Below, piece by piece: positions 1 through 13,632 of a stretch of DNA of 13,632 nucleotides (positions within the stretch are counted from its first letter, which is position 1; every line of letters starts with the position of its first letter). The notes under the pieces are model-generated. The model did not search any database and was not told the origin of the DNA. It saw only the letters and a program-made list of their open reading frames with translations. This stretch comes from Muribaculaceae bacterium (GTDB taxonomy: Bacteria; Bacteroidota; Bacteroidia; Bacteroidales; Muribaculaceae): NCBI GenBank assembly GCA_029062725.1, contig JAIDPP010000320.1, forward strand, positions 1 to 13,632. Direction: 5' to 3'. Position numbers and translations under genes: made by a program.

Positions 1-503
1 TTAAAATCATCCTTATGGAGCTCATTTATTGAATGGTTAGCCAAAATGACGCGCCCCACGGCTTTTGTCCAATCACTGGAAATCGCGACCTGAAGCTCTT
101 CATCGGCTTTATACAGAATCTCGAATATCTTATTCCCACTATTAAGAAGGGCCTGGCGTAAAGCTTCGGTATCATCGTCATCTTTTGGCATGCGTTTCAA
201 CGTATCCCTTATTACAATATGAAGTGCTTTCAGAAGTAAAAGGAAAGTAGTGGTTCGTTGTTGACCGTCAATAAGATTTAGTTTCCCCCTCTCAGAGCAA
301 TCTAAAATTACCGTTCCGAAGAAATAGGGATCATCCGCTTCTGTTGATATAAATGCGGTTATATCCTGCCACAATTTATCACATTGATCAATCGTCCATG
401 CATATTCGCGCTGATAGACCGGTATAGAGAATATCTCTTTCCCGGCCAGTTTTGTATAGTCGCCAATCAGTTTAAGATTAGGCTCAATATTCTTTGTTGG
501 CAT
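1..503 (-). CDS. DUF262 (GmrS-like, ParB/Srx fold) protein, 3' end beyond window
   Basis: The frame opens at the ATG at 503-501 and stays open for 167 codons to the left edge, so only the N-terminal part is visible. Two hallmarks of the DUF262 family are present: IPVYQREYAW at residues 27-36 and LIDGQQRTTT at 77-86. The DGQQR motif is the nucleotide-binding/hydrolysis signature of GmrS-type and related phage-restriction proteins. Family members usually exceed 500 residues and often carry a C-terminal DUF1524 HNH nuclease or another effector; whether this one does cannot be seen. It starts 23 nt after the stop of the preceding minus-strand gene and is the third gene of that operon. The family call is firm. 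A defence role is inferred from family and context. The target (for example modified phage DNA) is unknown. Confidence 0.87.
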   Translation of the reverse strand, partial: MPTKNIEPNLKLIGDYTKLAGKEIFSIPVYQREYAWTIDQCDKLWQDITAFISTEADDPYFFGTVILDCSERGKLNLIDGQQRTTTFLLLLKALHIVIRDTLKRMPKDDDDTEALRQALLNSGNKIFEILYKADEELQVAISSDWTKAVGRVILANHSINELHKDDF

Positions 504-523
504 ATTTTTTGAAAAAGTTAGCT

Positions 524-1765
524 TTACTCTCCAAACCTATTGTTAAGTCTGAGAAACGGGAAGATTAGGGTCAGGAAGCGAAGCTGATTGAGCACGGCAT
601 GAGCCGCATCAATCAGACGATATCTTTTCTTTATCTCGGGACGAGACGGGTCGGGAGCATAGGTCACGGTCTGCGTCCAATGGTCGTAAGAGGTGTTATT
701 ATGGTGGATACCGTTGCGAATCCCATTGTCGGCTATCTCCGAAAACGCGACCCTCAGCTTGGGAAGCCGTTGCATCAGGTTAAGACGCGTACCGTTGGTA
801 TGAGATATGAATTTAGCCATATCCGCATGATATGCCTTTCCATCTTTATCCTTGAATATATTGGGGTTACCGTGGTGAATCTGATTGTAGAAGGCCATAA
901 CCAACGGCAGGCATTTGCCGATAACCTCAAAGTTATCGGCATAGAGATCGTTTATCTCCTTCTCGGTAGTGGTCATCAGGAAAAGATCTTTTCCTGAACC
1001 TCCGTTGAAATCAAGCATAAAGGCCGGGAGGAACTTCGCCAAGTCCTTAACATTCTTATTAATCTGCTCTGCCACTTCATTATACAACTCCTCCGAAACA
1101 CCTGCTTCTTTGCAACATTCCACAACCTTCATCGGTCCTTCAGTATCGGATTTGAAGTTATGGCGCACCTTCCTGAACAGCATGTTGAGAAGAGACGATG
1201 TAAAGGAACCCTTATTGAAGTTGGCAAATACCACACCTATCATGGTTACGTAATGGCCATGACAATCCTCGACAGTTTCTATTCCATCCACTGGGGTATC
1301 ATCTCCAAATATCGCTTTTATCTTCCGAATATAGTACTCCGGCTTCAATTCTTTTGCCTGAAGAAGTTTATGTAAACTGTCCAAAGCCTCCGACCATTGG
1401 TCAACACCGTGCATCACCCCCTTCAATGCCATGTTATACAGATGCATCTCCTCAAATCCGAATACCATCTGCAAGGTCTGGTAAAGAGAAAGTGCCAGAC
1501 CATGCGACTGCTTCTCATAATAGAGAGGACGGGGAGTCGGAAGCCCGGCACAATAACCCACAAGATAACCCTCCGCATATCGGTCGGCCTTCTCCAAATC
1601 CGGTTTCAAACCATTCTTATCCAACTCAAGATGTATCCGGTCATTACAGTTGGGACATACCAACTCCATAGGCCATGTACGCCACTCGATGCTGGTATCA
1701 ATCTGATATTTCAGATGAAATGCCGCGCCGCATGTAGGACATAATATTTCTGCCGGTATTGTCAT
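524..1765 (-). CDS. Unknown protein with zinc ribbon and HEPN-like motif
   Basis: A 413-residue protein that I do not recognise as a named family. Residues 9-40 hold two CxxC knuckles (C9/C12 and C37/C40), consistent with a structural zinc ribbon. The rest is mostly helical. Near the C-terminus, R350-N-G-I-H-H355 matches the R-N-x3-H form of the HEPN ribonuclease motif and lies between helical segments, as in HEPN folds. There is no signal peptide or clear membrane span, so it is probably cytoplasmic. The start ATG overlaps the stop of the upstream 358-residue gene (ATGA, 1762-1765), implying translational coupling and near-equal production. A DUF262 gene follows. I infer an RNA-cleaving or RNA-binding part of a defence complex. 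The HEPN assignment rests on one short motif and could be wrong. The coding call itself is secure from length, operon position and long uninterrupted frame. Confidence 0.7.
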   Translation of the reverse strand: MTIPAEILCPTCGAAFHLKYQIDTSIEWRTWPMELVCPNCNDRIHLELDKNGLKPDLEKADRYAEGYLVGYCAGLPTPRPLYYEKQSHGLALSLYQTLQMVFGFEEMHLYNMALKGVMHGVDQWSEALDSLHKLLQAKELKPEYYIRKIKAIFGDDTPVDGIETVEDCHGHYVTMIGVVFANFNKGSFTSSLLNMLFRKVRHNFKSDTEGPMKVVECCKEAGVSEELYNEVAEQINKNVKDLAKFLPAFMLDFNGGSGKDLFLMTTTEKEINDLYADNFEVIGKCLPLVMAFYNQIHHGNPNIFKDKDGKAYHADMAKFISHTNGTRLNLMQRLPKLRVAFSEIADNGIRNGIHHNNTSYDHWTQTVTYAPDPSRPEIKKRYRLIDAAHAVLNQLRFLTLIFPFLRLNNRFGE

Positions 1766-2838
1766 TCAGTTTTCGCCTTTGTTAGAAACGCCTCTCTATA
1801 TCTTCTCGTAACTTCCTGTATATAGCTTTCAATTGCAGGTAATGACAACGGATTCGGAAGGCCTTTATAGTCTATGAATCTCTTTAATAGAATAAGAAAA
1901 AGAATATACACGGTATTGCAAAACCAATACCAGTGAGGATAGAGCGAGAAATCAGCTTTCTGACTTACAAAGGGAGAGAAGTAGTCGCCATGAAGACGTT
2001 CGCATCTGGAGGCATAGAGTATGGCAGTGAGAATAAACTCAATTCTGCGCTCAAAGGAGATCCCGGGCGTGGGAGTACCCTTGAAGGTCAAAGGCTCATC
2101 CGTCAATACACGCAAAAGTTTGCGCGCAGCTCTATGATGATCAGTGGCGGAGAGTACCTTTTCACCCCCCACCTCCGAAAGATATTCCTTTTCAAAGGCA
2201 GTAAATAGATCCTCTCCAATCGCCTCTTTTGCACGCTCCTTCACGTATTCATACTGCGATGCAATCTTTATGTCCCTGTCAAGGAGCATCCTTACGCTGG
2301 CGTAGCGACACACCGTAATAGGTATGATACTCAACCATTCCTGTAGTTTAACCTGCAACTCCCCGGCCTTGGAGTTGGAAATCTCAGGACGTATCACCTC
2401 CTCGGCAAATCTGCGGAAAAGATCGGCAGTCTTGATCTTCCCCTTCATATTCAACACCTCTTTGGCATACAGCGTCAAGAGAACCTCAAACGGAGTCCAC
2501 CATCTGTCAAAAGTGATATCGGGACGATAGGGAAGTGTCTCAAGGCCGTCAAGGATGACGGAGGAAATCTTGCTTAGTTCCGGATAGGAGAACAATACAT
2601 CCGAAGTCTCTTTTACCGGAAACGGATACGGAACAGCTATCGGTCCGCCTCTTTCGATAAGGAGATCAAGTTTGTCACGCATCTCCTTATCAGGAGTAGG
2701 GGCTACTCCCGATAGATATTCTACACGACGTTCAATGGCGTGATACTCGTTATATTCCTGTGGGGTCATTCTCTGCGAAATATTTTTTACGGCATTGAGG
2801 TAAGGAATCGGAGGTTTTAGTAATTTGTGTATAATCAT
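1762..2838 (-). CDS. Unknown HEPN-like protein, first gene of candidate defence operon
   Basis: A 358-residue protein without a recognised name. The C-terminal third contains a helix ending in R278-C-E-R-L-H283-G. This fits the R-x4-H catalytic motif of HEPN RNases and resembles the R(N/C)xxxHG form seen in Apea/abortive-infection-type HEPN domains. A strongly hydrophobic aromatic helix follows (about residues 299-319, rich in Y, W, F, L), which may be a helix-packing face or a membrane contact. No zinc motif is visible. The start ATG at 2838-2836 is chosen because a 14-codon upstream ORF ends exactly on it (ATGA) and a structured leader pairs up to its first base. Its stop overlaps the start of the 413-residue gene. 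Function is inferred: an RNase or toxin component partnered by the next two genes. Alternatively the R-x4-H match is chance and this is a scaffold protein. Confidence 0.68.
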   Translation of the reverse strand: MIIHKLLKPPIPYLNAVKNISQRMTPQEYNEYHAIERRVEYLSGVAPTPDKEMRDKLDLLIERGGPIAVPYPFPVKETSDVLFSYPELSKISSVILDGLETLPYRPDITFDRWWTPFEVLLTLYAKEVLNMKGKIKTADLFRRFAEEVIRPEISNSKAGELQVKLQEWLSIIPITVCRYASVRMLLDRDIKIASQYEYVKERAKEAIGEDLFTAFEKEYLSEVGGEKVLSATDHHRAARKLLRVLTDEPLTFKGTPTPGISFERRIEFILTAILYASRCERLHGDYFSPFVSQKADFSLYPHWYWFCNTVYILFLILLKRFIDYKGLPNPLSLPAIESYIQEVTRRYREAFLTKAKTE

Positions 2839-2879
2839 GCCAGAGCTACTGCCGAAACGGCAGACTCACGTACCGACAT
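2835..2879 (-). CDS. Candidate leader peptide (uORF), stop-start coupled
   Basis: A 14-codon ORF (MSVRESAVSAVALA) whose TGA stop at 2837-2835 overlaps the ATG of the 358-residue protein (2838-2836) as ATGA. A Shine-Dalgarno-like GGGAAG lies 7 nt before its ATG, on the 3' arm of a hairpin (2887-2915), so access to it could be controlled by folding. It spans the CTGCCG/CGGCAG hairpin. A second overlapping frame of 20 codons (2908-2846, starting MERFHWEEL) is also open. Translation of either is unproven. The exact ATGA junction is the main reason to list it. Confidence 0.35.
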   Translation of the reverse strand: MSVRESAVSAVALA

Positions 2880-2978
2880 ATTAATTCTTCCCAATGAAAA
2901 CGTTCCATAGGGAAGGATCGGTAGTCAGTCCGGAATTCCGGATATACTCTGCCTTCTACAAATACATGTGCTCCGACA
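2838..2978 (-). promoter_or_regulatory. Structured 5' leader RNA of the defence-like operon
   Basis: In the leftward transcript, UGUCGGAGC (2978-2970) can pair with GCUCUGGCA (2846-2838) over 9 bp including two G-U pairs. This closes a domain whose last base is the A of the start codon. Inside it lie a perfect 14-nt palindrome UCCGGAAUUCCGGA (2942-2929), a long hairpin (2915-2887: CUUCCC/GGGAAG, one U-U mismatch, then AUGGAA/UUUCAU around CGU), and a CUGCCG-UUU-CGGCAG hairpin (2863-2849). GGCAGA (2953-2948) is also complementary to UCUGCC (2864-2859), so it could compete with the last hairpin. This is riboswitch- or attenuator-like architecture. I do not recognise a known class. The pairings are read by eye and not computed. 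Confidence 0.5.
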
Positions 2979-3150
2979 GGACTACTCTAACTAAGAATGT
3001 TGATTTACAAAATTACTCTATTTTTTTAAAATAGGCAAATATATGCTCCGGCTAATAGAACTTGCAAATATATTTTTGAATGTAAGGTGATATTTCCCCA
3101 ACAACTGGTCTAAGCTCTTCCGTTTCGGTTCAAAAAATACTAATCTCCTT
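2839..3150. other. Intergenic region (312 bp) between defence-like operon and toxin gene
   Basis: No ordinary gene is supported here. The left part (2839-2978) is the structured leader with small uORFs. The next part (about 3000-3072) holds the promoter and extra TAnnTTTG elements in very A+T-rich sequence. The segment 3073-3150, downstream of the toxin stop, shows no convincing terminator hairpin. Confidence 0.6.
3008..3039 (-). promoter_or_regulatory. Bacteroidota-type promoter for the three-gene operon
   Basis: On the minus strand TTTG (3039-3036) is followed after 20 nt by TAATTTTG (3015-3008). This is a full match to the Bacteroides primary-sigma consensus TTTG-N19-21-TAnnTTTG. Transcription would start near 3001, giving a leader of about 160 nt before the first ATG. 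Two further TAnnTTTG matches overlap or precede it (3043-3036 and 3072-3065), so additional start sites are possible. Confidence 0.65.
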
Positions 3151-3426
3151 TTATCCAAAAATATCGGAATGGGTACCTGTGTCGAGTAAAATAAGAATCA
3201 GTGCATCATTATCCAACTCCCAAGTCAATAGCCAATCGGATGAGATATGACATTCCCATACATGGTTGAATTTCCCGCTAAGTCTGTGAGGTCGATATTC
3301 CAAAGGGAGAGTTCCCTTGTGAGAAAGTATTTCTATTACCTTTTCAAACCTCTTTATATCAAGGCCTCTCTTCAGGCATCTCTTAAAAGATTTCTTGAAG
3401 GTATTTGATCGAATAATCCTATACAT
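3151..3426 (-). CDS. Type II toxin, YafQ family (RelE superfamily mRNA interferase)
   Basis: A 91-residue protein of the usual length for YafQ. Members bind the ribosome and cut mRNA in the A site, and they are held inactive by the cognate antitoxin. Residues matching those reported as important in E. coli YafQ are all present: H47 (RPHRLSG), H60, D64 and W65 (WECHISSDWLL), and H86 and F90 near the end (THSDIFG). The toxin is therefore predicted to be intact. It begins 2 nt after the stop of the antitoxin gene, in the standard antitoxin-first order, so it is likely translationally coupled and autoregulated with it. It sits upstream of the defence-like operon in the same orientation but is separated from it by a promoter, so I treat them as independent units in one island. 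Confidence 0.9.
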   Translation of the reverse strand: MYRIIRSNTFKKSFKRCLKRGLDIKRFEKVIEILSHKGTLPLEYRPHRLSGKFNHVWECHISSDWLLTWELDNDALILILLDTGTHSDIFG

Positions 3427-3428
3427 TC

Positions 3429-3629
3429 TCAGCTCATTAAATCAGCCATCAACTCATCTACGGAGAAAAATGGACCTGCAACCTCTCCATTACGAACTTC
3501 TTCAATAGCCTCTTCCAAACGGGAAGCAGGAGCTTCTACAGGACGGATGCTTGCACCCTCGAAAGCCTTCAACAATTTTTTTATGAGACGGTAATCCTCT
3601 TCTGATTGCAAACTTAGTGTATAGTCCAT
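3429..3629 (-). CDS. Antitoxin of the YafQ-type module
   Basis: A 66-residue acidic protein immediately upstream of the YafQ-type toxin, with a 2-nt gap. The N-terminus (MDYTLSLQSEEDYRLIKKLL) looks like a short beta-alpha unit. The middle is helical (about residues 40-50). The C-terminal end (FSVDELMADLM) resembles the segment by which antitoxins wrap their toxin. I see no classical helix-turn-helix or clear ribbon-helix-helix, so its DNA-binding mode is unassigned. The role is inferred from position, size and acidity rather than a strong family match. Confidence 0.78.
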   Translation of the reverse strand: MDYTLSLQSEEDYRLIKKLLKAFEGASIRPVEAPASRLEEAIEEVRNGEVAGPFFSVDELMADLMS

Positions 3630-3684
3630 AATTTTTTTCTTTAATAACGAATATAGCCCGAGATTGTTGAATGATAGAACATTA

Positions 3685-5010
3685 TTAGTCGCGCTCGAAG
3701 ATGTCGCGGGTATAGACCTTCTCCATGACGTCGGCGAGATCCGCGCTCGTGCGGTTGGCGAGAATCGCCTGCGAGCGACGCTTGAATTCCTCGAGATCGT
3801 TAACTACACGGGAGCCGAAGAAGGTGGTGCCGTTCTCAAGCGTGGGCTCGTAGATGATCACGGTCGCTCCCTTGGCTTTGATGCGCTTCATTACCCCCTG
3901 AATCGAACTCTGACGGAAGTTGTCGGAATTGGATTTCATGGTCAGGCGATAGACACCGATCACACATTCATCATCCTGACGCTCATGGCGTTGGCCGTAA
4001 GTGTTGGAAGAGGAATAATCATACCATCCGGCCAGACGCAACACCTGATCGGCTATAAAGTCCTTGCGCGTGCGGTTGCTCTCCACGATGGCGCTCATCA
4101 TGTTCTGCGGCACATCGGCGTAGTTAGCCAAAAGTTGCTTGGTGTCTTTGGGCAGGCAGTAGCCGCCATAGCCGAAGGAAGGATTGTTGTAGTGGGTTCC
4201 GATACGCGGATCGAGCCCTATACCCTCGATTATTGCCTTGGAATCGAGTCCTTTGACTTCGGCGTAGGTATCAAGCTCATTGAAGTAGCTTACACGCAGG
4301 GCGAGATAGGTATTGGCAAAGAGCTTCACGGCCTCCGCCTCCTTCATTCCCATGTAAAGGGTGACGATATCCTTTTTCTCCGCTCCATCTTTCAGAAGCC
4401 GGGCGAAGATATGCGCCTGCTCGTCAAGCCATTCCACATCCGTGACCTTCCGGATCGCCTCATTCTCCTCGGCAAATTCCGGTTTGTCTATGATCTTGGG
4501 AATACCTGCGATGATGCGGGAGGGGTAAAGGTTGTCGTAGAGGGCCTTGCTCTCGCGCAGGAACTCGGGAAAGAACAGAAGGTTGAAGCGCTTTACGCCC
4601 CTGGCGGCGTATTTCACGTATAGATTCCGGCAGTAGCCCACGGGAATTGTGGATTTGATAACCATGACCGCCTCGGGATTGACGGAGAGGACAAGGTCGA
4701 TGACATCCTCAATGTTATGGGTATCGAAGTAGTTTTTCACCGGATCGTAATTGGTGGGTGCGGCAATCACCACAAAGTGTGCGTTGCGGTAGGCTTCCGC
4801 GCCGTCGAGGGTAGCGGTGAGGTCGAGTTCCTTCTCGGCGAGGTATTTCTCTATATAATCATCCTGAATCGGGGATTTCCGCCTGTTAATGAGCTCCACT
4901 TTTTCAGGAATCACATCGACGGCGGTTACATGATTATGCTGAGCCAAAAGAGTCGCTATCGAGAGACCGACATATCCTGTGCCCGCCACGGCTATATTAT
5001 ATTTTTCCAT
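3685..5010 (-). CDS. ugd: UDP-glucose 6-dehydrogenase
   Basis: A 441-residue cytoplasmic enzyme that oxidises UDP-glucose to UDP-glucuronate with two NAD+. UDP-glucuronate is a precursor for acidic capsule or exopolysaccharide sugars. The N-terminal Rossmann motif is GTGYVG (residues 10-15). The family blocks KSTIPVG (119-125), [15 protein letters not shown] (146-160) and [15 protein letters not shown] (225-239) are present. The catalytic nucleophile is C285 in [15 protein letters not shown], and [10 protein letters not shown] (312-321) follows. The sequence parallels E. coli Ugd almost end to end, apart from roughly 18 extra residues at about 327-349 between central and C-terminal domains (tyrosine-, serine- and arginine-rich), likely a surface loop. 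It lies 32 bp behind the UpxY-like gene in the same direction, and the regulator presumably acts on this transcript. An additional promoter may lie in that gap. Confidence 0.95.
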
Positions 5011-5029
5011 CGTATTTCGTATTTGCGCA

Positions 5030-5061
5030 CAAAGATAACAATTTATTCCACTTTCTCCAAT
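5030..5061 (-). promoter_or_regulatory. Possible internal promoter for ugd
   Basis: On the minus strand ATTG (5061-5058, one mismatch to TTTG) is followed after 20 nt by TATCTTTG (5037-5030), a full TAnnTTTG match. It overlaps the end of the upstream gene and would give a leader of only about 12 nt before the ugd ATG. It could let ugd be expressed independently of the antiterminator gene. Confidence 0.35.
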
Positions 5062-5579
5062 AAATCAGGATGGATAAACGGAAGGGCGATGGCGCAGAGT
5101 CCCTCGATTTCGACTACGATGTGCTTGTTGCGGCGGATGCGGCGCGCGTATCCTTCGTAGCCGGCAAAAGGGCCACCGGTGACACGGAGACGGTCGCCGA
5201 TCCTGAATTCCTCCTTACGGTAAACCTCACAGCGTGTCGAGTCGGGGGCTGTCAGCAGTCGGAAAAGACGGAACTCCCTATCCGCGATAGGCTGGATTTC
5301 ATCGCCGCGCTTATAGCGGTAGATCCAGAAAGGGAGCAGTTCACCTCCGGGATTCTTCCCCTCTTCCTCTAAAAGGGAAGCCGATCGGGTTCCGGTGCGC
5401 ATAAAGAGGAGCTTGGCTATAACAGGACGCCGGGAAATGGTTCCATCCGGATTCCGGACCATATCTACTGGGAGATAGGTCTCCACGCCGCGCTCCCCAA
5501 GCTGCGACGCAAGAGCCGAAGGCCGCCCGCTCTTTAGGGCGAACCATCGCTTCTCCTCTTCTTCTTGCCCTTCCTTCAT
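5043..5579 (-). CDS. UpxY-family transcription antiterminator (NusG paralogue)
   Basis: A 178-residue NusG-like regulator. Residues about 11-110 form the NGN domain that contacts RNA polymerase (KRWFALKSG at the start, then [11 protein letters not shown]). Residues about 127-160 form a KOW-type segment ([20 protein letters not shown]). In Bacteroides, UpxY proteins are encoded first in capsule operons and let RNA polymerase read through the long untranslated leader of their own locus. Here it precedes only ugd on its strand and diverges from the SLBB/Wzz genes. No UpxZ-like partner gene follows. A strong promoter lies 39-46 nt upstream. The first ten residues are highly charged ([10 protein letters not shown]). 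The family call is firm. Which operon it controls is inferred. Confidence 0.88.
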
Positions 5580-5624
5580 TCCGCTGATGTAAATATTGAA
5601 GTTCTCCGGTTTTTAATACTGTTG

Positions 5625-5655
5625 CAAAATTACCATAAATCTTTCATCATACAAA
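5625..5655 (-). promoter_or_regulatory. Promoter for the UpxY-like gene and ugd
   Basis: On the minus strand TTTG (5655-5652), a 19-nt spacer and TAATTTTG (5632-5625) match the Bacteroides consensus fully. Transcription would begin near 5618, leaving about 40 nt before the ATG at 5579. I see no flanking inverted repeats of the kind that mark invertible capsule promoters. Confidence 0.65.
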
Positions 5656-5663
5656 AATATTCT

Positions 5664-5695
5664 TTTCCTAATTTGAGAGATATTTATTAAATTTG
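5664..5695 (+). promoter_or_regulatory. Possible promoter for the SLBB-Wzz-M23 genes
   Basis: TAAATTTG at 5688-5695 is a full TAnnTTTG match. The -33 element at the expected distance is poor (TTTTC at 5663-5667); a TTTG at 5672-5675 is too close. The predicted start near 5702 would place the ATG at 5768 about 65 nt downstream. Confidence 0.4.
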
Positions 5696-5767
5696 CACAA
5701 TATAATCCAAAGCGGAGCCGAACTGACCGGTTTCACTCCCGGCTCTCAAACTTTTCAGGAAGCATAT

Positions 5768-8191
5768 ATGAATTTCAATTTCAGACATAACCTTCGTAAT
5801 TTCCTCACAATCGGACTCATGTTCTTAGCGGTTTCTGCAGTGGCGATGACCGACGACGAGGTGATAACATATATCCGGACGCAGTCGGCAAACGGCAAGA
5901 CCGAGCAGCAGATAGGCCAGGAACTGATGGCCCGGGGCGTAAGACCCGACCAGGTGAAGCGCATCAAGGCTAAATACCAGAAGGAGGGCACCAATGTGGC
6001 CGGAACCACTTCGTCGGCCCAGAGCGCCGCTCTGATCGACAACGGCCGCGACCAGGTGATCGAGACTCAGACCATCGATACCACAGTGATCGACGTCAAC
6101 AATCCCGAGCAGAATCAGCAGGCTATGGAGGTGTATGGACATGACCTCTTCAATTCCCGCTCTCTGACCTTCGAGCCGAACAAGAACCTCGCCACTCCGA
6201 AAAACTACCGGCTCGGCCCCGGCGATGAGGTGATTATCGATATCTGGGGCGCCGCCGAGGACCATATCCGCGAGCAGATCTCCCCGGAGGGGAGCATCAT
6301 GATTTCCCGCCTCGGACCGGTATATCTCAACGGAAAGACAATCGATGAAGCCAACAGCTATATCCGGAACCTGTTCGCCCGGAAATATGCCGGAGTCGGC
6401 AATGACCAGACTGACGTCAGCGTAAACCTCGGCGATGTCCGCTCAATACAGATCGATATCATGGGTGAGGTCAGCACTCCGGGGTCTTTCCGGATGTCGC
6501 CCTTCTCCACTGTCTTCCATGCCTTATATAATGCCGGTGGAATCAACAATATCGGTTCGATGCGTAATATTTACGTGATGCGCAACGGCAAGCGGGTGGC
6601 TACCGTCGATATCTATGACTATCTCTTTAAAGGGAAACAGACAGGAAACATACGTCTTCAGGAGGGAGACGTGATCATCGTGCCCCCCTACGAGCAGGTG
6701 GTCAATATCTCCGGTAACGTGAAACGTCCGATGTATTATGAAGTGAAACCGGGCGAGACCGTGGCTTCCCTTCTCGAATATGCCGGGGGATTCTCGGGCG
6801 ACGCCTATTCAGGAATGGTGCGCCTGTCGCGTCAGAACGGCGCCGAAAACGAACTCTACAATATCGAAAGCGACGAGTTTTCCTCCTATCGACTCAAGGA
6901 TGGCGATGTGGGGACTGTCGGGGAGGTGCTCGACCGTTACACAAACCGTGTGGAGCTGAAGGGTGCCGTCAACCGTCCCGGTCTTTACGCCATGAGCAAC
7001 AAAGCGACGACCGTCCGTGAGTTAATCAATATGGCCGAAGGGCTCACCGATGACGCCTATCAGGGGCGCGCGCTCCTATACCGTCAGGGACCCGACCTCA
7101 CCCTCGAGGTGATACCATTCGACCTTGCCGCGGTCATGGCCGGGACTGCCGCCGACATCACGTTGCAGAAAAACGACGTGATAGAGATTTCCAGTGTTCA
7201 GATGATGGAGGAGAGAGGAGATTTCACTATCGAAGGGATGGTGACCAATCCCGGTAACTATTCATATATGGCCAATACCTCGGTGGAGGATCTCATCCTC
7301 CGCGCCGGCGGCCTACGTGAAGGAGCCTCCACAGCAAGAATTGATATCTCCCGACGTATCGTGAACCCGTCGTCGGTTTATGAGACGCAGCAGTTAGCAG
7401 AGATTTTCACGATAAACCTTGTCTCAGGCTTAGGCCAGAAACGGAATCCGGGTCAGGAATTCATCCTTAAACCCTACGACCATGTGACTGTACGCCGTGC
7501 ACCGGGATATGCTGCCCAGAAAACAGTGAGGGTCAGTGGTGAGGTACTCTTCCCGGGAAATTATACTCTTGAAACCCGCAACGAGCGCCTAAGCAGTCTC
7601 GTCGAGCGGGCCGGAGGAGTAATTTCAGGATCATATCTGAAGGGAGCCTATCTGAAGAGAAAACTCTCTGCCGATGAAGTCGAGGCCCGAAGAAACGTGA
7701 TAAGGCTCGCTTCGCAGAATCAGGAGGGCACGGATTCCATCTCCGTAGCCAAACTGAATATCGATACCATCTACAACGTGGGGATCAACCTCCCTCTCGC
7801 TCTTTCCAAACCGGGGTCGGACTATGACCTTGTCCTTCAGGACGGCGACCAGCTGTTTATCCCGGAATTTCAGAGCACTGTCAAGATTGCAGGAGATGTG
7901 ATGTATCCCAATACGGTAGTATATCAGCCGGGACAGAAGGTTTCATATTATATCAATCAGGCCGGTGGATACGGCAACACGGCTAAAAAGAGCAAATGCT
8001 TCATTGTATATATGAACGGCGAGGTGGCGAAAGTCGGTAGGAAAACTGTCGTCGAGCCCGGAGCCACGATCATCGTGCCTTCGAAAGAGCCTTCCAACGG
8101 TCAGAGCTGGGAAAAGATCCTGACTTTCGTCTCCGGATTCGGCTCAGTAGCCACAATGGCCGCTACGGTAGCCTCCCTATTCAGAAAATAA
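5768..8191 (+). CDS. SLBB-domain polysaccharide export protein (Wza-like)
   Basis: An 807-residue envelope protein of the outer-membrane polysaccharide export family. The start at 5768 is chosen over the in-frame TTG at 5693: it has an AGGA 7 nt upstream, opens a clear signal peptide (residues 1 to about 26, ending FLAVSAVA), and the TTG overlaps the predicted -7 promoter element. A small helical domain follows (about 27-72), then the Poly_export domain (about 140-225, YRLGPGDEVIIDIWG). Six SLBB/soluble-ligand-binding repeats begin near residues 226, 310, 393, 484, 584 and 703, each with a GxVxxPG-like turn and an AGG(x)-type motif. The end is a hydrophobic helix (about 780-805). It is about twice the length of E. 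coli Wza and lacks a lipobox cysteine. It probably forms the translocon with the next gene product, a Wzz protein. Confidence 0.92.
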   Translation: MNFNFRHNLRNFLTIGLMFLAVSAVAMTDDEVITYIRTQSANGKTEQQIGQELMARGVRPDQVKRIKAKYQKEGTNVAGTTSSAQSAALIDNGRDQVIETQTIDTTVIDVNNPEQNQQAMEVYGHDLFNSRSLTFEPNKNLATPKNYRLGPGDEVIIDIWGAAEDHIREQISPEGSIMISRLGPVYLNGKTIDEANSYIRNLFARKYAGVGNDQTDVSVNLGDVRSIQIDIMGEVSTPGSFRMSPFSTVFHALYNAGGINNIGSMRNIYVMRNGKRVATVDIYDYLFKGKQTGNIRLQEGDVIIVPPYEQVVNISGNVKRPMYYEVKPGETVASLLEYAGGFSGDAYSGMVRLSRQNGAENELYNIESDEFSSYRLKDGDVGTVGEVLDRYTNRVELKGAVNRPGLYAMSNKATTVRELINMAEGLTDDAYQGRALLYRQGPDLTLEVIPFDLAAVMAGTAADITLQKNDVIEISSVQMMEERGDFTIEGMVTNPGNYSYMANTSVEDLILRAGGLREGASTARIDISRRIVNPSSVYETQQLAEIFTINLVSGLGQKRNPGQEFILKPYDHVTVRRAPGYAAQKTVRVSGEVLFPGNYTLETRNERLSSLVERAGGVISGSYLKGAYLKRKLSADEVEARRNVIRLASQNQEGTDSISVAKLNIDTIYNVGINLPLALSKPGSDYDLVLQDGDQLFIPEFQSTVKIAGDVMYPNTVVYQPGQKVSYYINQAGGYGNTAKKSKCFIVYMNGEVAKVGRKTVVEPGATIIVPSKEPSNGQSWEKILTFVSGFGSVATMAATVASLFRK

Positions 8192-8209
8192 TCACGTCAT
8201 AAACAGGGA

Positions 8210-8236
8210 TTCCCCACAACCGCAAATGCGGGGGAA
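8210..8236 (+). repeat. Intercistronic hairpin
   Basis: TTCCCC (8210-8215) and GGGGAA (8231-8236) bracket CGCA/TGCG, forming a stem with a 5-nt bulge on the left arm between the SLBB and Wzz genes. There is no following T-run, so it is more likely an mRNA processing or stability element than a terminator. Its function is unknown. Confidence 0.35.
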
Positions 8237-8253
8237 CTGCAACACCTTACGAA

Positions 8254-9393
8254 ATGTCAGAACAGAACTATAACGACAAGGAGATGGAAGAGAAGGAGAT
8301 CGATCTCCTCGAAATCGTCAGGATGATATGGAAGCGGAAGAAGACGATAGGACTCTGGTGTCTGGCCGGCGCCCTGCTCGGCTTAGTGGTCGCTTTCAGC
8401 ATCCCGAGGGAATATGACACGAGCGTGAAACTGGCTCCCGAATCTTCCGACGGAAAGGGAGGATCAAGCAACCTCGGGGCTTTGGCAGCCATGGCAGGCG
8501 TAAGCCTCGGCTCTTCGGGCGCAGATGCTGTGTCTCCGCAGCTTTATCCCGACATAATGAAGTCTGTACCCTTCAATCTTTCCCTTCTTGACATTCCCGT
8601 GACGGATAAGGAGGGGAAAAGGACCTTCACAGTAGCGGAATATCTTCAGAACGACGTCAAATCCCCCTGGTGGAGCGCGATCACCGGACTTCCCGGTCAA
8701 ATCCTCGGTGCCCTCTCATCCGGCGACAAAGAGAAGGAGGTAGAGGTAGAGACACCGGACGGGGCAACCGTTATCCGTCTCTCCAATGAGCAGGCTGACC
8801 TTATTCGCGCCCTTAACGGGGCGATCACTCCCTCGGTCGATATCAAGACAAATGTGGTCACAATCAAAGTCCGGATGCAGGATCCGATGGTCTCGGCGAT
8901 TCTGGCCGATTCCGTGGCGAGCCGCCTGAAGGAGTATGTGACAGACTACCGTACCAACAAGGCTCGCAAGGATCTTGAATATGTGGAGAAGCTTAATGCC
9001 GAGGCTAAGGAAACCTATTACGCCGCGCAGCAGAAATATGCCAATTATCTCGACACGCATCAGGGAATCGTATTATATTCTGCGCAGACAATGCGCGACC
9101 GTCTGGAGAATGAGACGCAGCTTGCCTTCAATCTCTTCAACCAGACCTCCCAGCAACTCCAGATGGCAAAAGCCAAGGTGCAGGAACAGACTCCTGTCTA
9201 TGCCACTATAGAGCCGGCTACCGTCCCCATCAAACCATCGGCTCCAAGGAAGCCGATGATTCTGATCGGATTCATTTTCCTCGCTTTCGCAGCCTCCGTG
9301 GCATGGATTCTATTCATCCAGCCTAATATTAGGAAAATCAAGGAAGAAAACGAGGCGGAAAAAGCAATTGTGAAGACGGAGGACTCTGTTTAA
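8254..9393 (+). CDS. Wzz-family polysaccharide chain-length/co-polymerase protein
   Basis: A 379-residue inner-membrane protein with the Wzz layout: a cytoplasmic N-terminus containing EIDLLEIVRMIWKRKK (residues 15-30), TM1 about 31-50, a large periplasmic region, and TM2 about 335-355 preceded by the proline-rich motif ATVPIKPSAPRKP (322-334). The periplasmic part is helical, with coiled-coil-like stretches around 235-310. No Walker-A tyrosine-kinase domain follows TM2; the tail is only about 25 charged residues, so this is Wzz-type rather than a full Wzc. A glycine/serine/alanine-rich low-complexity stretch lies at 67-92. Such proteins set polymer length and bridge the polymerase to the export protein encoded just upstream (62-bp gap, same transcript likely). 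Confidence 0.9.
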   Translation: MSEQNYNDKEMEEKEIDLLEIVRMIWKRKKTIGLWCLAGALLGLVVAFSIPREYDTSVKLAPESSDGKGGSSNLGALAAMAGVSLGSSGADAVSPQLYPDIMKSVPFNLSLLDIPVTDKEGKRTFTVAEYLQNDVKSPWWSAITGLPGQILGALSSGDKEKEVEVETPDGATVIRLSNEQADLIRALNGAITPSVDIKTNVVTIKVRMQDPMVSAILADSVASRLKEYVTDYRTNKARKDLEYVEKLNAEAKETYYAAQQKYANYLDTHQGIVLYSAQTMRDRLENETQLAFNLFNQTSQQLQMAKAKVQEQTPVYATIEPATVPIKPSAPRKPMILIGFIFLAFAASVAWILFIQPNIRKIKEENEAEKAIVKTEDSV

Positions 9394-9413
9394 TATATTT
9401 GATGTTTAACATC
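9394..9413 (+). promoter_or_regulatory. Possible promoter element and small dyad before the M23 gene
   Basis: TATATTTG (9394-9401) matches TAnnTTTG just after the Wzz stop, and ATTG lies 23 nt upstream, a little too far for a good -33 element. It is followed by GATGT-TTA-ACATC (9401-9413) and a short T-rich run. The same sequence could therefore be a weak terminator for wzz or a promoter for the peptidase gene; I cannot decide. Confidence 0.3.
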
Positions 9414-9450
9414 TTTTATTGAATGTGGTCTAAACCTCCGCGCACACCGG

Positions 9451-10497
9451 ATGTCAATTTTTAATATGACTTCAATCAGAATATATATCACGCTTATAAT
9501 TTGCCTTCTTCTTTCTCAGGGAGGAAAGGCACAGAATATTTCCGACGCTCTTGACGGCATCCTTTCAATTATGACCGACGATGGCGTCGATCTTGACCGT
9601 ATGGCGGCCTCTATGGCCGGAGAACCGGATTTCGACAGTATGATCTCGGCGATGTCCTCTCCCTCTTCCTCCTCCGCCACTGTGGATCTTGATCTTCTGG
9701 CGGCGTCAATGAGCCGTGGCGGCTCCCGTTATTCTGATGCGGCGGTCAGAAATACGCTCAGTTTCCTTTCTGATGCATATTCATATCCGGCTCAAGGGAG
9801 GGCCGGATATTTCAGAGGTTATTCTAATCCGTCGATCGCCGGGGGAGCCGTGCTGCCCGTAGCCGGAATAATAACCTCTCGCTTCGGCTACCGTCCGGCG
9901 TTCCGCAGAATGCATAAGGGAGTGGATATCGCACTTCAGGTGGGCGATACTGTAGTGGCGGCTCTTGACGGCACAGTGGAGCGCGTATCGAACGATCCGC
10001 ATGGCTACGGAGTATTCGTCTGCCTCCGCCATTCCGATGGAATGGAGACCAGATATGCGCATCTAAGCCGTGCGCTGGTAGTTCCCGGCATGAGGGTGAT
10101 GGCCGGCGAACCTCTTGCTTTGGGTGGCAACACGGGCAATTCCACCGGCCCGCATCTCCATTTCGAGACGCGCGTGCAAGGAACTGCCGTGGATCCGACC
10201 TCGATGTTCGATTTCTCCATGCCCTCAGGAATGACGCGACACCGCTCGCTGGCGGCTCTCGATTCGGAAAATCCACGTCATGCTGTCAACATGTATCCCG
10301 CGTCCTATGGCTCCGCAAATCCCGCCGCCGGAGCGGCGCTGGCACAACGGGAGAAATCTACATATATAGTAAGGACAGGCGATACCGTCGCTTCCGTAGC
10401 ACGAAAAAACGGAATCTCTGTCCTCACTCTTTGCAGATTGAATATGCTTTCTTCCGATTCCCGACTTACTCCGGGAACCATGCTCAAGATACGTTAA
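9451..10497 (+). CDS. Secreted M23 peptidase with C-terminal LysM
   Basis: A 348-residue exported protein. The N-terminal signal peptide spans residues 1-27 (hydrophobic core IYITLIICLLL, cut likely after GGKA). An in-frame ATG at 9466 (residue 6) is an equally plausible start. The lysostaphin-type zinc peptidase domain runs about 135-250. Its metal and catalytic residues are present: H155 and D159 (HKGVD), H204 (RYAHL), and H235/H237 (GPHLHFE), so it should be an active peptidoglycan endopeptidase. A LysM domain at 304-348 (YIVRTGDTVASVARKNGIS) would anchor it to peptidoglycan. The linker after the signal peptide holds two copies of VDLDxxAASM (46-55 and 78-87). It follows wzz by 57 bp in the same direction, suggesting a role in opening or remodelling the wall around the exporter. 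That link is inference. Confidence 0.92.
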   Translation: MSIFNMTSIRIYITLIICLLLSQGGKAQNISDALDGILSIMTDDGVDLDRMAASMAGEPDFDSMISAMSSPSSSSATVDLDLLAASMSRGGSRYSDAAVRNTLSFLSDAYSYPAQGRAGYFRGYSNPSIAGGAVLPVAGIITSRFGYRPAFRRMHKGVDIALQVGDTVVAALDGTVERVSNDPHGYGVFVCLRHSDGMETRYAHLSRALVVPGMRVMAGEPLALGGNTGNSTGPHLHFETRVQGTAVDPTSMFDFSMPSGMTRHRSLAALDSENPRHAVNMYPASYGSANPAAGAALAQREKSTYIVRTGDTVASVARKNGISVLTLCRLNMLSSDSRLTPGTMLKIR

Positions 10498-10500
10498 TTT

Positions 10501-12120
10501 TTACCGGTCGCCTACCGTAGTTCCGATAAGTTCCAACAGCCGCGGAAGAGCCTCCTCGGTCGGGATATTCTTTATAACAAGTTCCTTCCCTTTATATAGG
10601 CTCACTCTTCCGGGTCCGGCTCCGACATATCCGTAATCGGCGTCGGCCATCTCGCCGGGACCGTTTACTATACATCCCATCACCCCTATCTTAAGCCCCT
10701 TCAGTTCCTTTGTGGCTTCCTTGACCTCCTTCAACGTATTCTGGAGGTCGAAGAGGGTGCGTCCGCATCCGGGGCAGGCGATATATTCGGTCTTGCTCAT
10801 GCGCAGACGCGCGGCCTGAAGTATATCCAACTCGAGATCGCCGAGCACATCTTCGCCGAACGCCGGTGCCACTATCTCTATTCCGCTGCCATAACCGTTA
10901 AGAAGCATGACGCCGAAATCGGCGGCTGCCTTTATGCGGAGTGTGTCAAGGTCGGTGTCTTCGTAACGCAGCCGCAGGATCATGGGATTGTGGAAGCCCG
11001 CGGCCACGAAACGGTCGATATACGACATTATCTCCCCCGGCGCGTTGCGATGACGCGAGGTAATTGTAAGCGGACCGCTGAACTCCGGATTCTTTACCGG
11101 CATAGAGGCGTCAGTCAGAAAAAATATTGCCTTTGGCCGGTCGGCATGCATGGCGATTATCTTATCCTCATAGCCGGTCAACCTGTCGAGGCTGTCACGG
11201 CTCGCTCCCTCGACTACCTTCTCCGGTTCTTTTATGGGTGTATGCCCTTCGCGGGCTGCGATGTAGTCGCGTAGCATACGTGCTACCGGAATCTCCCTCT
11301 CCGGATCCTCCGACAAAGATACGCGGATTGTATCCCCCAACCCTTCGGCAAGGAGGGCGCCGATACCAAGGGCGCTCTTGATGCGACCATCCTCAGCGTC
11401 GCCTGCTTCGGTCACTCCCAAATGCAACGGATAATCCATTCCCTCGCTCTCCATTGCCTTGACAAGAAGCCTGACCGTCTCGGTCATTACGCAGGTGTTG
11501 GAGGCTTTTATGGAGATCACGATATCATGAAAATCTACCTTCCTACAGATTCGCAGGTATTCCATCACCGATTCCACCATCCCCGCCGGGGTGTCGCCGT
11601 AGCGGCTCATTATGCGGTCGGAGAGCGACCCGTGGTTTACCCCCAGGCGGATCGAGACTCCGTTGGAGCGGCATTTCTCAAGAAAGGGTATAAGAGCACG
11701 CGAAATCTTTTCTATCTCTTCGGCATACTCCTGATCGGTAAACTCAAGTTTACGGAACGTGCGTGCCGCATCGACGAAGTTTCCGGGATTGATGCGTACC
11801 TTATCGGCAGTATCCGCGGCGGCGAAGGCGGCGTTAGGATTGAAATGGACATCGGCCGAAAGGGGCACCTGGCAACCTGAGGCGCGCAAGGCCTTCCTTA
11901 TCTTACCCAAAGATTCCGCCTCACGGACACCCTGGGTGGTGAGACGCACGAGTTCGCCTCCCTCTTCATAAATGCGTCGGGTCTGGGCGATGCTCCCCTC
12001 TATATCGTTGGTTGAGGTGTTGGTCATCGACTGAAGGCGCACGGGATTTTCACCTCCGATGCCGATATTCCCTACCTTCACGGCGCGGCTGCGGCGCCGT
12101 CTGTAATTATATCTGCTCAT
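10501..12120 (-). CDS. ispG: 4-hydroxy-3-methylbut-2-enyl diphosphate synthase (IspG/GcpE)
   Basis: A 539-residue enzyme of the MEP isoprenoid pathway. It converts methylerythritol cyclodiphosphate to HMBPP with a [4Fe-4S] cluster. The TIM-barrel part begins with VKVGNIGIGGENPVRLQSMT (residues 15-33). Cluster ligands C449 and C452 (CPGCG) and C483 (GCIVNGPGE), with the conserved glutamate E490, lie in the C-terminal domain. At 539 residues it is longer than E. coli IspG (about 370), because Bacteroidota and plant enzymes carry an extra central domain, seen here at about 295-420. The gene starts 4 bp behind the PAP2 stop, so it is probably cotranscribed with it, and it ends 3 bp from the convergent peptidase gene. 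Its product feeds undecaprenyl phosphate and menaquinone synthesis. Confidence 0.96.
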   Translation of the reverse strand: MSRYNYRRRRSRAVKVGNIGIGGENPVRLQSMTNTSTNDIEGSIAQTRRIYEEGGELVRLTTQGVREAESLGKIRKALRASGCQVPLSADVHFNPNAAFAAADTADKVRINPGNFVDAARTFRKLEFTDQEYAEEIEKISRALIPFLEKCRSNGVSIRLGVNHGSLSDRIMSRYGDTPAGMVESVMEYLRICRKVDFHDIVISIKASNTCVMTETVRLLVKAMESEGMDYPLHLGVTEAGDAEDGRIKSALGIGALLAEGLGDTIRVSLSEDPEREIPVARMLRDYIAAREGHTPIKEPEKVVEGASRDSLDRLTGYEDKIIAMHADRPKAIFFLTDASMPVKNPEFSGPLTITSRHRNAPGEIMSYIDRFVAAGFHNPMILRLRYEDTDLDTLRIKAAADFGVMLLNGYGSGIEIVAPAFGEDVLGDLELDILQAARLRMSKTEYIACPGCGRTLFDLQNTLKEVKEATKELKGLKIGVMGCIVNGPGEMADADYGYVGAGPGRVSLYKGKELVIKNIPTEEALPRLLELIGTTVGDR

Positions 12121-12124
12121 TGAA

Positions 12125-12976
12125 CTATCTTATCATTGTCATGAAGAAAACCGAAAGAAACCCGACGGCATATCCCGCAAGCACCTGCGCGGCAGTATGG
12201 CGTCCGAGCCATACACGGGCGGAACCCAACAGACCGCAGGCCGCAATCCAGATGATGAGCCACGCCCAGATGCCGGGCTGAGGATTGGCTTCGTGCATTA
12301 TCCGGATGAGCATGGCCGCGATGCCGGCAATCGCGGCGGAATGGGCGCTGATCTTCCAGCGGAAATTGATGACAAGGTTGACAAGACCTGCCACAGCACC
12401 TCCTATAAAGAACATCACGAACCACATCGGAGCATGCTTGAAATACATGAAGAGACCCGTACCGCCCATACAGAGGATGGTGATGATATAGGGTATCAGA
12501 CGCTCTTTGCGTCCGTTAAGCCCAAGATCATCGACAAGCCCCATACGCTTCAGCAGAACCACCAGCAGGGCCGGTATCCCCACGTTTATAGCCGCTACGA
12601 TCAGCGTGAAATTGAGCTTCGTGGAGAAGGTCATGAAATCCAGGATCGAAAGGTTGAAGGCCAGCAACGTCCCGAACACCGGCATAAGCAAAGGAACGAG
12701 TATCCATGAAAGAGCCGTAGAAAAAACGTCGAAAAAACGTTCCCACTCTCCGGGATCATAGACAGGTAGCTTTTCCTGAGCCGGAATTCCTAAGATCGGA
12801 CTCTTCCTCTCTTCTGTTTCAGAGGAGGTTTTTGCATCGCTATCCTCTTCTTTCCCATTTTCTTTTCCCCCGAGGAAGAGGGAACCGTTCCCGGGTCCTT
12901 CCCCTCCCGTATTGTTGTCATTATCCTCATCTCCGAGTGGAGATTTGGGATAATAGGATGATGTGTCTATCTTCAT
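12125..12976 (-). CDS. PAP2-superfamily membrane protein with acidic N-terminal tail
   Basis: A 283-residue protein. The first about 75 residues are hydrophilic and acidic, low-complexity (Asp, Glu, Gly, Asn, Ser, Lys) and likely disordered. From residue 85 there are about six hydrophobic segments. PAP2-type motifs follow in order: K157-ERLIP (reduced motif 1), I-S210-A-H212-S (motif 2), and S252-A-R254-VWLGRH260-TAAQ (motif 3). H212, R254 and H260 correspond to the catalytic core. The acidic residue usually following motif 3 (H-x3-D) is Q264, a substitution that may be common in this lineage. The likely activity is dephosphorylation of a lipid phosphate or isoprenyl diphosphate at the membrane, but the substrate is unknown. 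It is followed after 4 bp by ispG. The annotated start is the first ATG of the frame; a later start within the tail is possible. Confidence 0.82.
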   Translation of the reverse strand: MKIDTSSYYPKSPLGDEDNDNNTGGEGPGNGSLFLGGKENGKEEDSDAKTSSETEERKSPILGIPAQEKLPVYDPGEWERFFDVFSTALSWILVPLLMPVFGTLLAFNLSILDFMTFSTKLNFTLIVAAINVGIPALLVVLLKRMGLVDDLGLNGRKERLIPYIITILCMGGTGLFMYFKHAPMWFVMFFIGGAVAGLVNLVINFRWKISAHSAAIAGIAAMLIRIMHEANPQPGIWAWLIIWIAACGLLGSARVWLGRHTAAQVLAGYAVGFLSVFFMTMIR

Positions 12977-13052
12977 AATCTTAAATTCTTTATTTCTCCT
13001 CTATCTTATCTGATCTTTCCGGACATCTTTCATACCGGACGCCGCTTGCGGG

Positions 13053-13632
13053 CTATACGTTCTGACGCCGCAGGACCGTTTGGAATTTCACAGGTACGGG
13101 AGTCTCGAAGTGCATGTCTTTCTTTGTGACTGGATGGGCGAAACGCAACGTCCGGGCATGGAGTGCGAGACGATGAAGCGGACTCTTCTTAGCCCCGTAT
13201 TTACGGTCGCCGCTGATGGGATGGCCAAGATCGGAAGCATGGACGCGGATCTGATTCTTGCGTCCGGTATCGAGAGAGAACTGAGCCAGGGTAAGGTTGT
13301 TGCCGCGGTCAAGCACTTTATAATGTGTCACGGCGATACGTCCCTCGTAAGGATTGTCGGTAGAATAGACCACAAACTGGGAGTTCTCGGCAAGCCGGCT
13401 CTTGACAAATCCTTCGTCTTGCTCCAAATATCCTTCGAGGACGGCCACATAAAGACGCTGGAGGATGACGTTGTTCCAGTTATGGCGCAGCACTTCCTGA
13501 GCCTCCGCCGACTTGGCGAACATCATAAGTCCGGAAGTGTCGCGGTCAAGACGATGCACGATAAAAAGTTTGTTACGCGGGTCAACCTCCTTTACATAAT
13601 TCCTCACTATATCGTATGCATTGGTCTCCTTC
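13053..13632 (-). CDS. RluA-family RNA pseudouridine synthase, 5' end beyond window
   Basis: The frame stays open to the right edge. In-frame codons before the GTG at 13607 read KETNAYDI, so the GTG is internal and the true start lies outside the window. The signature HRLDRDTSGLMMFAK carries the catalytic aspartate (HRLD). LYVAVLEGYL, the TGRKNQIRVHASDLGHPISGD block and the C-terminal LHALxL-like stretch (RLALHARTLRFAHP) complete the catalytic domain. The protein converts uridine to pseudouridine in rRNA or tRNA; the exact target (RluA, RluC, RluD-like) cannot be assigned from this part. It lies 76 bp upstream of the PAP2 gene on the same strand. Any N-terminal S4 domain would be off the edge. 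Confidence 0.92.
   Translation of the reverse strand, partial: KETNAYDIVRNYVKEVDPRNKLFIVHRLDRDTSGLMMFAKSAEAQEVLRHNWNNVILQRLYVAVLEGYLEQDEGFVKSRLAENSQFVVYSTDNPYEGRIAVTHYKVLDRGNNLTLAQFSLDTGRKNQIRVHASDLGHPISGDRKYGAKKSPLHRLALHARTLRFAHPVTKKDMHFETPVPVKFQTVLRRQNV

Follow-up and report, generated by a model that had tools for sequence, protein, structure and literature searches.

Two adjacent genes for putative HEPN-type RNases and a neighbouring DUF262 gene on a Muribaculaceae contig

The DNA analysed here, called the window below, is the whole 13,632-base contig G000:C247 of a Muribaculaceae bacterium (JAIDPP010000320.1), from an assembly (G000) of 1.83 Mb in 441 contigs that is 79.6% complete. Its minus strand carries two genes, here called P1 and P2, followed by the beginning of a DUF262 gene (Table 1). 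A sequence-only reading had taken the three genes for a defence system in which DUF262 senses or hydrolyses a nucleotide and two HEPN-like proteins act on RNA. The open reading frames and their spacing confirm the operon that it described, with frames of 358 and 413 residues, the ATGA overlap, a gap of 20 nt between P2 and the DUF262 gene, and the DGQQR motif. The grouping of the genes appears to be different. On balance, we consider it probable that the products of P1 and P2 make up a HEPN RNase-like module of two proteins, which is most likely directed against phages, and that DUF262 is an exchangeable companion.

Table 1. Coordinates of the features in the window and at comparison loci (designated L)
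Feature	Position	Strand	Basis or remark
P1	1762..2838	minus	358-codon open reading frame; helical protein, C-terminal HEPN-type motif
P1 motif R255-C-E-R-L-H260 (Rx4H, 335-aa numbering)	1990..2007	minus	alignment, 11 rows
ATGA overlap, P1 stop/P2 start	1762..1765	minus	
P2	524..1765	minus	413 aa; N-terminal zinc ribbon and C-terminal HEPN-type motif
P2 zinc ribbon, Cys9/12 and Cys37/40 (CPTC...CPNC)	1646..1741	minus	17-row alignment
P2 motif R350-N351-G-I-H-H355 (RNx3H)	701..718	minus	17- and 30-row alignments
DUF262 (GmrSD_N) gene, first 167 codons	3..503	minus	PF03235, E 4.1e-25
DGQQR motif, DUF262 domain residues 79-83	255..269	minus	
YafQ-family toxin gene	3151-3426		PF15738, E 3.6e-28
P1 homologue tail-to-tail with Cas13b, two genus-mate genomes	L017 5057-10105; L027 4183-8703		
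DUF262-DUF1524 gene between hsdS and hsdR, type I restriction operon	L065 1363-9968		

The case for the HEPN assignment is made by the C-terminal motifs. In P1, R255, R258 and H260 are invariant in 11/11 aligned rows, with RNNRFH at the motif in the homologue of genome G548. In P2, R350, N351 and H355 are invariant in all 17 rows, a hand-picked spread of the relatives at hand, and they are kept in a 30-row alignment that overlaps this set. When letters were shuffled among the invariant columns, an Rx4-6H pattern arose in 1.4% of the trials for P2 and in 10% for P1. PMC3710099 (Anantharaman 2013) places the HEPN Rx4-6H motif at the end of helix 3 or the start of the loop to helix 4. The AlphaFold2 models (mean pLDDT 80 for P1 and 72 for P2) agree with this rule for both proteins, since the motif lies at a helix end, before a loop and the last long helix. 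In the P1 model, the motif ends helix 239-260, which is followed by a low-confidence loop and helix 274-302; in the P2 model, helix 347-354 is followed by strands and by helix 384-410. Foldseek searches with both models against the PDB, and with the P1 model against BFVD, returned nothing significant; the weak, non-significant structural lists are headed by, among others, AbiV and Csm6 chains. Sequence profiles of solved structures gave no credible match, hhalign compared P1 with P2 at a probability of 0.2%, and no Pfam HEPN family was matched when 9 P1-like and 30 P2-like proteins were scanned singly (one stray match among the latter, E 0.0061). The description of both proteins as HEPN-like is supported by an invariant motif at the expected helix position, whereas the fold itself is only suggested by the fold searches.

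P2 differs from P1 in its N-terminal zinc ribbon, in which C37 and C40 are invariant and C9 and C12 are present in at least 90% of the 17 rows. Pfam, PADLOC and NCBIfam detect only weak zinc-ribbon stretches in P2, below every cut-off, and no PADLOC family matches it at E <= 1. It does match PHROG 13366, a family of unknown function (E 3.2e-15, profile positions 26-363 of 413). None of the families in Pfam, NCBIfam and PADLOC matches P1 at E <= 1, and none of the PHROGs does so at E <= 0.01. A P1 frame of 358 codons exists, but the true start is probably Met24 at position 2769, giving 335 aa, because this is where the sequences of all six database homologues start in the alignment.

The two genes are found as a conserved pair in the family of the window. 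P2 adjoins P1 at each of the three P1 loci detected in this family (genomes G000, G237 and G683), with a 4-nt overlap in G000 and G683 and a distance of 2 nt in G237. The gene order is reversed in G683, where P2 precedes P1, and the P2 proteins of G237 and G683 are only 19-21% identical to that of the window. In G237, a PD-T4-7-like gene, P1 and P2 are followed 19 nt on by a gene for a 380-aa Mrr-like protein (sub-threshold Mrr_cat_2 match, E 0.00073, 19.9 bits against a cut-off of 22). At this locus (L010 3362-5589), a HipA-like gene precedes the PD-T4-7-like gene, which stands directly before P1. In G683, the downstream genes have no evident connection with defence, and about 415 bp of contig precede P2.

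Another setting of P1 is seen in two genus-mates, G548 and G645, where it lies tail-to-tail with Cas13b (NF038190, E 4.1e-134 and 1.8e-159) at gaps of 96 and 57 nt, respectively. The CRISPR arrays at these loci have 18 and 16 repeat copies. Additional defence genes are found nearby, namely PtuA/PtuB-like (Septu-like) genes near the array in G548, and AriA/AriB-like genes directly before P1 in G645. P1 is a candidate companion gene of type VI-B systems. In these two of the five P1 genomes, a three-row P2 profile had no match anywhere in the assembly, although a very divergent P2 could escape it.

Relatives of P1 are rare. A search among 5.8 billion proteins gave six matches, and P1 as a query had no match among viral contigs or phages; the plasmid collection contained no match to the P1 of the window or of G683. 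In genome draws, which overlap one another and include G000 in the counts, P1 was found in 2/297 genomes of the family (G000 and G237), in 2/81 of the genus of G237 (G237 and G683) and in 2/18 of the family of G548 (G548 and G645). The order draw gave 6/344, of which G000 and G548 were kept, and the phylum draw 2/345, of which G000 was kept. The remaining matches to the P1 profile, four in the order (G300, G508, G455 and G443, E 1.1e-4 to 6.0e-4) and one in the phylum (G947, E 4.4e-4), were weak and were dropped before counting. They cover 62-98 profile positions; upon realignment, three of the five stop short of the motif, and those of G508 and G947 reach it, without the histidine of Rx4H. 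A genome-contig locus matching P1 (L006) was also rejected, as an 80-residue frame that overlaps another gene in a different frame and shares little beyond RCERLHGD.

As a single query, P2 found only itself among the 5.8 billion proteins, and a five-row profile retrieved 28 proteins, itself included. In the family draw it occurs in 2/297 genomes, the same two as P1, and in the order draw in 2/323 (G000 and G474). The G474 protein (E 6.5e-10), which is outside the 17-row alignment, has the RN-x3-H motif, and no P1 was present on the stretch read, in a contig that ends about 370 bp upstream. Phages gave no match to P2 or to its relative at L018. Plasmid records matched in 3 cases with P2 as the query, in 19 with the L018 relative and in none with the L019 relative. 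No P1 accompanies the P2 relative on seven plasmid stretches (Enterococcus, two Sinorhizobium, Leclercia, Yersinia ruckeri, Pseudomonas and Lactococcus), nor at two loci read among three with a P2 relative in the viral collection. On one viral-collection contig (L019 1178-8183), the relative is flanked by Gabija genes (GajA E 1.2e-165, GajB E 4.3e-81) on one side and by an AbiD-like gene (E 4.8e-28) on the other. On a Sinorhizobium plasmid (L009 4231-7584), a P2 relative is divergent from a gene of the HEPN family DUF4145 and convergent with a CARF-type gene. Firmicute relatives of P2 carry a SEC-C metal-binding tail (L007 5983-7347, according to Pfam; L072 4001-5413, according to the record annotation).

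The DUF262 domain and its DGQQR motif are present as previously described, but the gene is incomplete, as its frame runs off the contig end after 167 codons. A full-length relative used as the query detected no further part of it in the G000 assembly. The best PADLOC match of the piece is HEC-06 (E 5e-24). Its three nearest relatives (G003, G054 and G176; 58, 57 and 54% identity over the piece) are proteins of 600-603 aa with GmrSD_N and GmrSD_C domains, PF07510 being found in all three. One of their genes lies between hsdS and hsdR and two are among other genes; none adjoins P1 or P2. Since the nearest relatives are fused proteins encoded away from P1 and P2, the gene of the window most likely also encodes a complete GmrSD-type DUF262-DUF1524 restriction protein, with its second part off the contig, and is probably not tied to the pair. 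Such a protein would replace the nucleotide sensor of the earlier proposal.

An obligate three-gene system, in which DUF262 senses or hydrolyses a nucleotide and triggers the HEPN pair, now appears distinctly unlikely. The close spacing on the same strand speaks for it, as does the precedent of PD-T4-2, which combines DUF262 with a HEPN protein (PMC10952713), and in G237, too, a nuclease-type gene follows P2 closely. That gene is Mrr-like, however, and takes the place of DUF262; the sole DUF262 gene of G237 is on another contig. G683 (72% complete) has no PF03235 match, although an upstream partner is possible there. G548 and G645 have 4 and 8 PF03235 matches, respectively, none adjoining P1; one of those in G548 is on the P1 contig, about 32 kb away. 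DUF262 relatives occur in 88/277 genomes of the family, G000 included, far more widely than P1 and P2, and the nearest ones have a type I restriction operon or other genes around them. According to the earlier reading, homologues of the two genes that occur without each other or DUF262 in unrelated contexts would refute it. This is largely what is observed, with P1 in two genomes that have no P2 match and no DUF262 next to it, and P2 relatives on plasmids and viral-collection contigs without P1. DUF262 is most likely an exchangeable companion in the same operon, and not an obligatory sensor. The three-gene system keeps a small probability because the three genes of the window are likely to be transcribed together and the G683 contig has little upstream sequence.

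The separate occurrences could also mean that P1 and P2 work independently, each as a single-gene RNase toxin or Abi gene, and stand side by side by chance in an island. This is unlikely in view of their adjacency at each of the three loci detected in the family, overlapping or 2 nt apart, through one inversion and deep divergence. A toxin-antitoxin-like pair, with one HEPN protein restraining the other, might be suspected from the YafQ-type pair next door, and overlapping co-directional genes are a common layout of toxin-antitoxin systems. We regard it as very unlikely, because none of the aligned homologues has lost its motif, the two proteins are not of small size, and either family can be found without the other. 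The earlier suggestion of a defence system is supported in that both families have several loci with defence genes around them and that the P1-P2 pair is conserved in one bacterial family; the obligate trio is not supported.

The two-protein module could work as follows. The ATGA overlap would couple the translation of P1 and P2. Judging by the way in which other HEPN RNases act, the HEPN domains of P1 and P2, although on separate chains, would probably come together in a heterodimer whose composite site cleaves RNA. Upon infection, this site may cleave RNA of the host or the phage and so arrest growth. The zinc ribbon of P2 is likely to bind RNA or the partner. The changing neighbours, DUF262, Mrr-like, AriA/AriB-like and Cas13b, suggest that P1 moves as an effector from one defence locus to another, whether P2 accompanies it or not. 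Tentatively, and with less confidence than for the module itself, one may go further and view P1 and P2 as the halves of a split, guide-free heterodimeric HEPN RNase. P1 would then be a plug-in effector. In one family of the order, it would be recruited by P2 together with exchangeable nuclease-type genes (DUF262, Mrr-like); in another family, type VI-B CRISPR (Cas13b) and PARIS-like loci would have taken it up. If true, two unnamed HEPN-type families would be added to bacterial immunity, and a paired-HEPN RNase from separate genes would make the composite active site directly testable by subunit mixing. Type VI-B CRISPR loci would also gain a candidate RNase companion, given that two genomes have P1 next to Cas13b. 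The data call for caution in annotation, as a DUF262 gene adjoining HEPN genes need not form one system with them.

The operon lies in A+T-richer DNA, as had been noted. The GC content is 44.6% at positions 1-2838 and 39.1% at 2839-3660, against 52.9% at 3661-13632, so that the P1-P2-DUF262 stretch and the toxin-antitoxin pair fit an acquired island. The toxin of the latter is a YafQ-family protein as judged by its Pfam match, but the 66-codon gene that precedes it (within 3151-3629) stays below all Pfam and NCBIfam cut-offs. An inverted repeat, CTGCCG-AAA-CGGCAG at 2849-2863, is found just upstream of the P1 frame and could be an operator or hairpin; scans for inverted repeats, promoters and terminators gave nothing remarkable. 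The rest of the contig resembles a polysaccharide-export locus when its frames are read by eye.

HEPN RNases in defence are well known, but the P1 and P2 families and their pairing are unnamed in the libraries searched, beyond PHROG 13366. A description of the pair was not found in the titles and opening lines of abstracts of open-licence papers on HEPN- and DUF262-type defence, Cas13b, HEC-06 and PARIS, or in passages of PMC3710099, PMC10952713, PMC9519451 and PMC11090510. With the HEPN superfamily (PMC3710099), both proteins share the invariant Rx4-6H at a helix end, a helical build and defence neighbours at several loci, whereas they match no Pfam HEPN family and their fold similarity is not significant. 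According to PMC10952713, DUF262 occurs in GmrSD, BrxU, SspE, Menshen, Dazbog and PD-T4-2. The last consists of DUF262 and a HEPN protein of PF18735 (PMC10952713 and PMC9519451). The window resembles PD-T4-2 in that its DUF262 gene adjoins a HEPN-type gene, but it has two HEPN-type proteins, one with a zinc ribbon, to which DUF262 is not conserved as a partner, and neither P1 nor P2 matches PF18735 at E <= 1. With the GmrSD/BrxU/SspE-type DUF262-DUF1524 proteins, it shares the DUF262 domain with DGQQR and nearest relatives of the fused GmrSD_N-GmrSD_C type, although the C-terminal part of the gene is not on the contig. PHROG 13366 includes P2 and viral-collection relatives; two such copies were read without P1, whereas that of the window is paired with it. 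The likeness to Csm6 and Cas13 is one of principle only. No CARF domain or guide RNA is seen with P1 and P2 and their HEPN motifs are on two chains, but the HEPN active sites may be paired in a similar way, and strands follow the motif in the P2 model.
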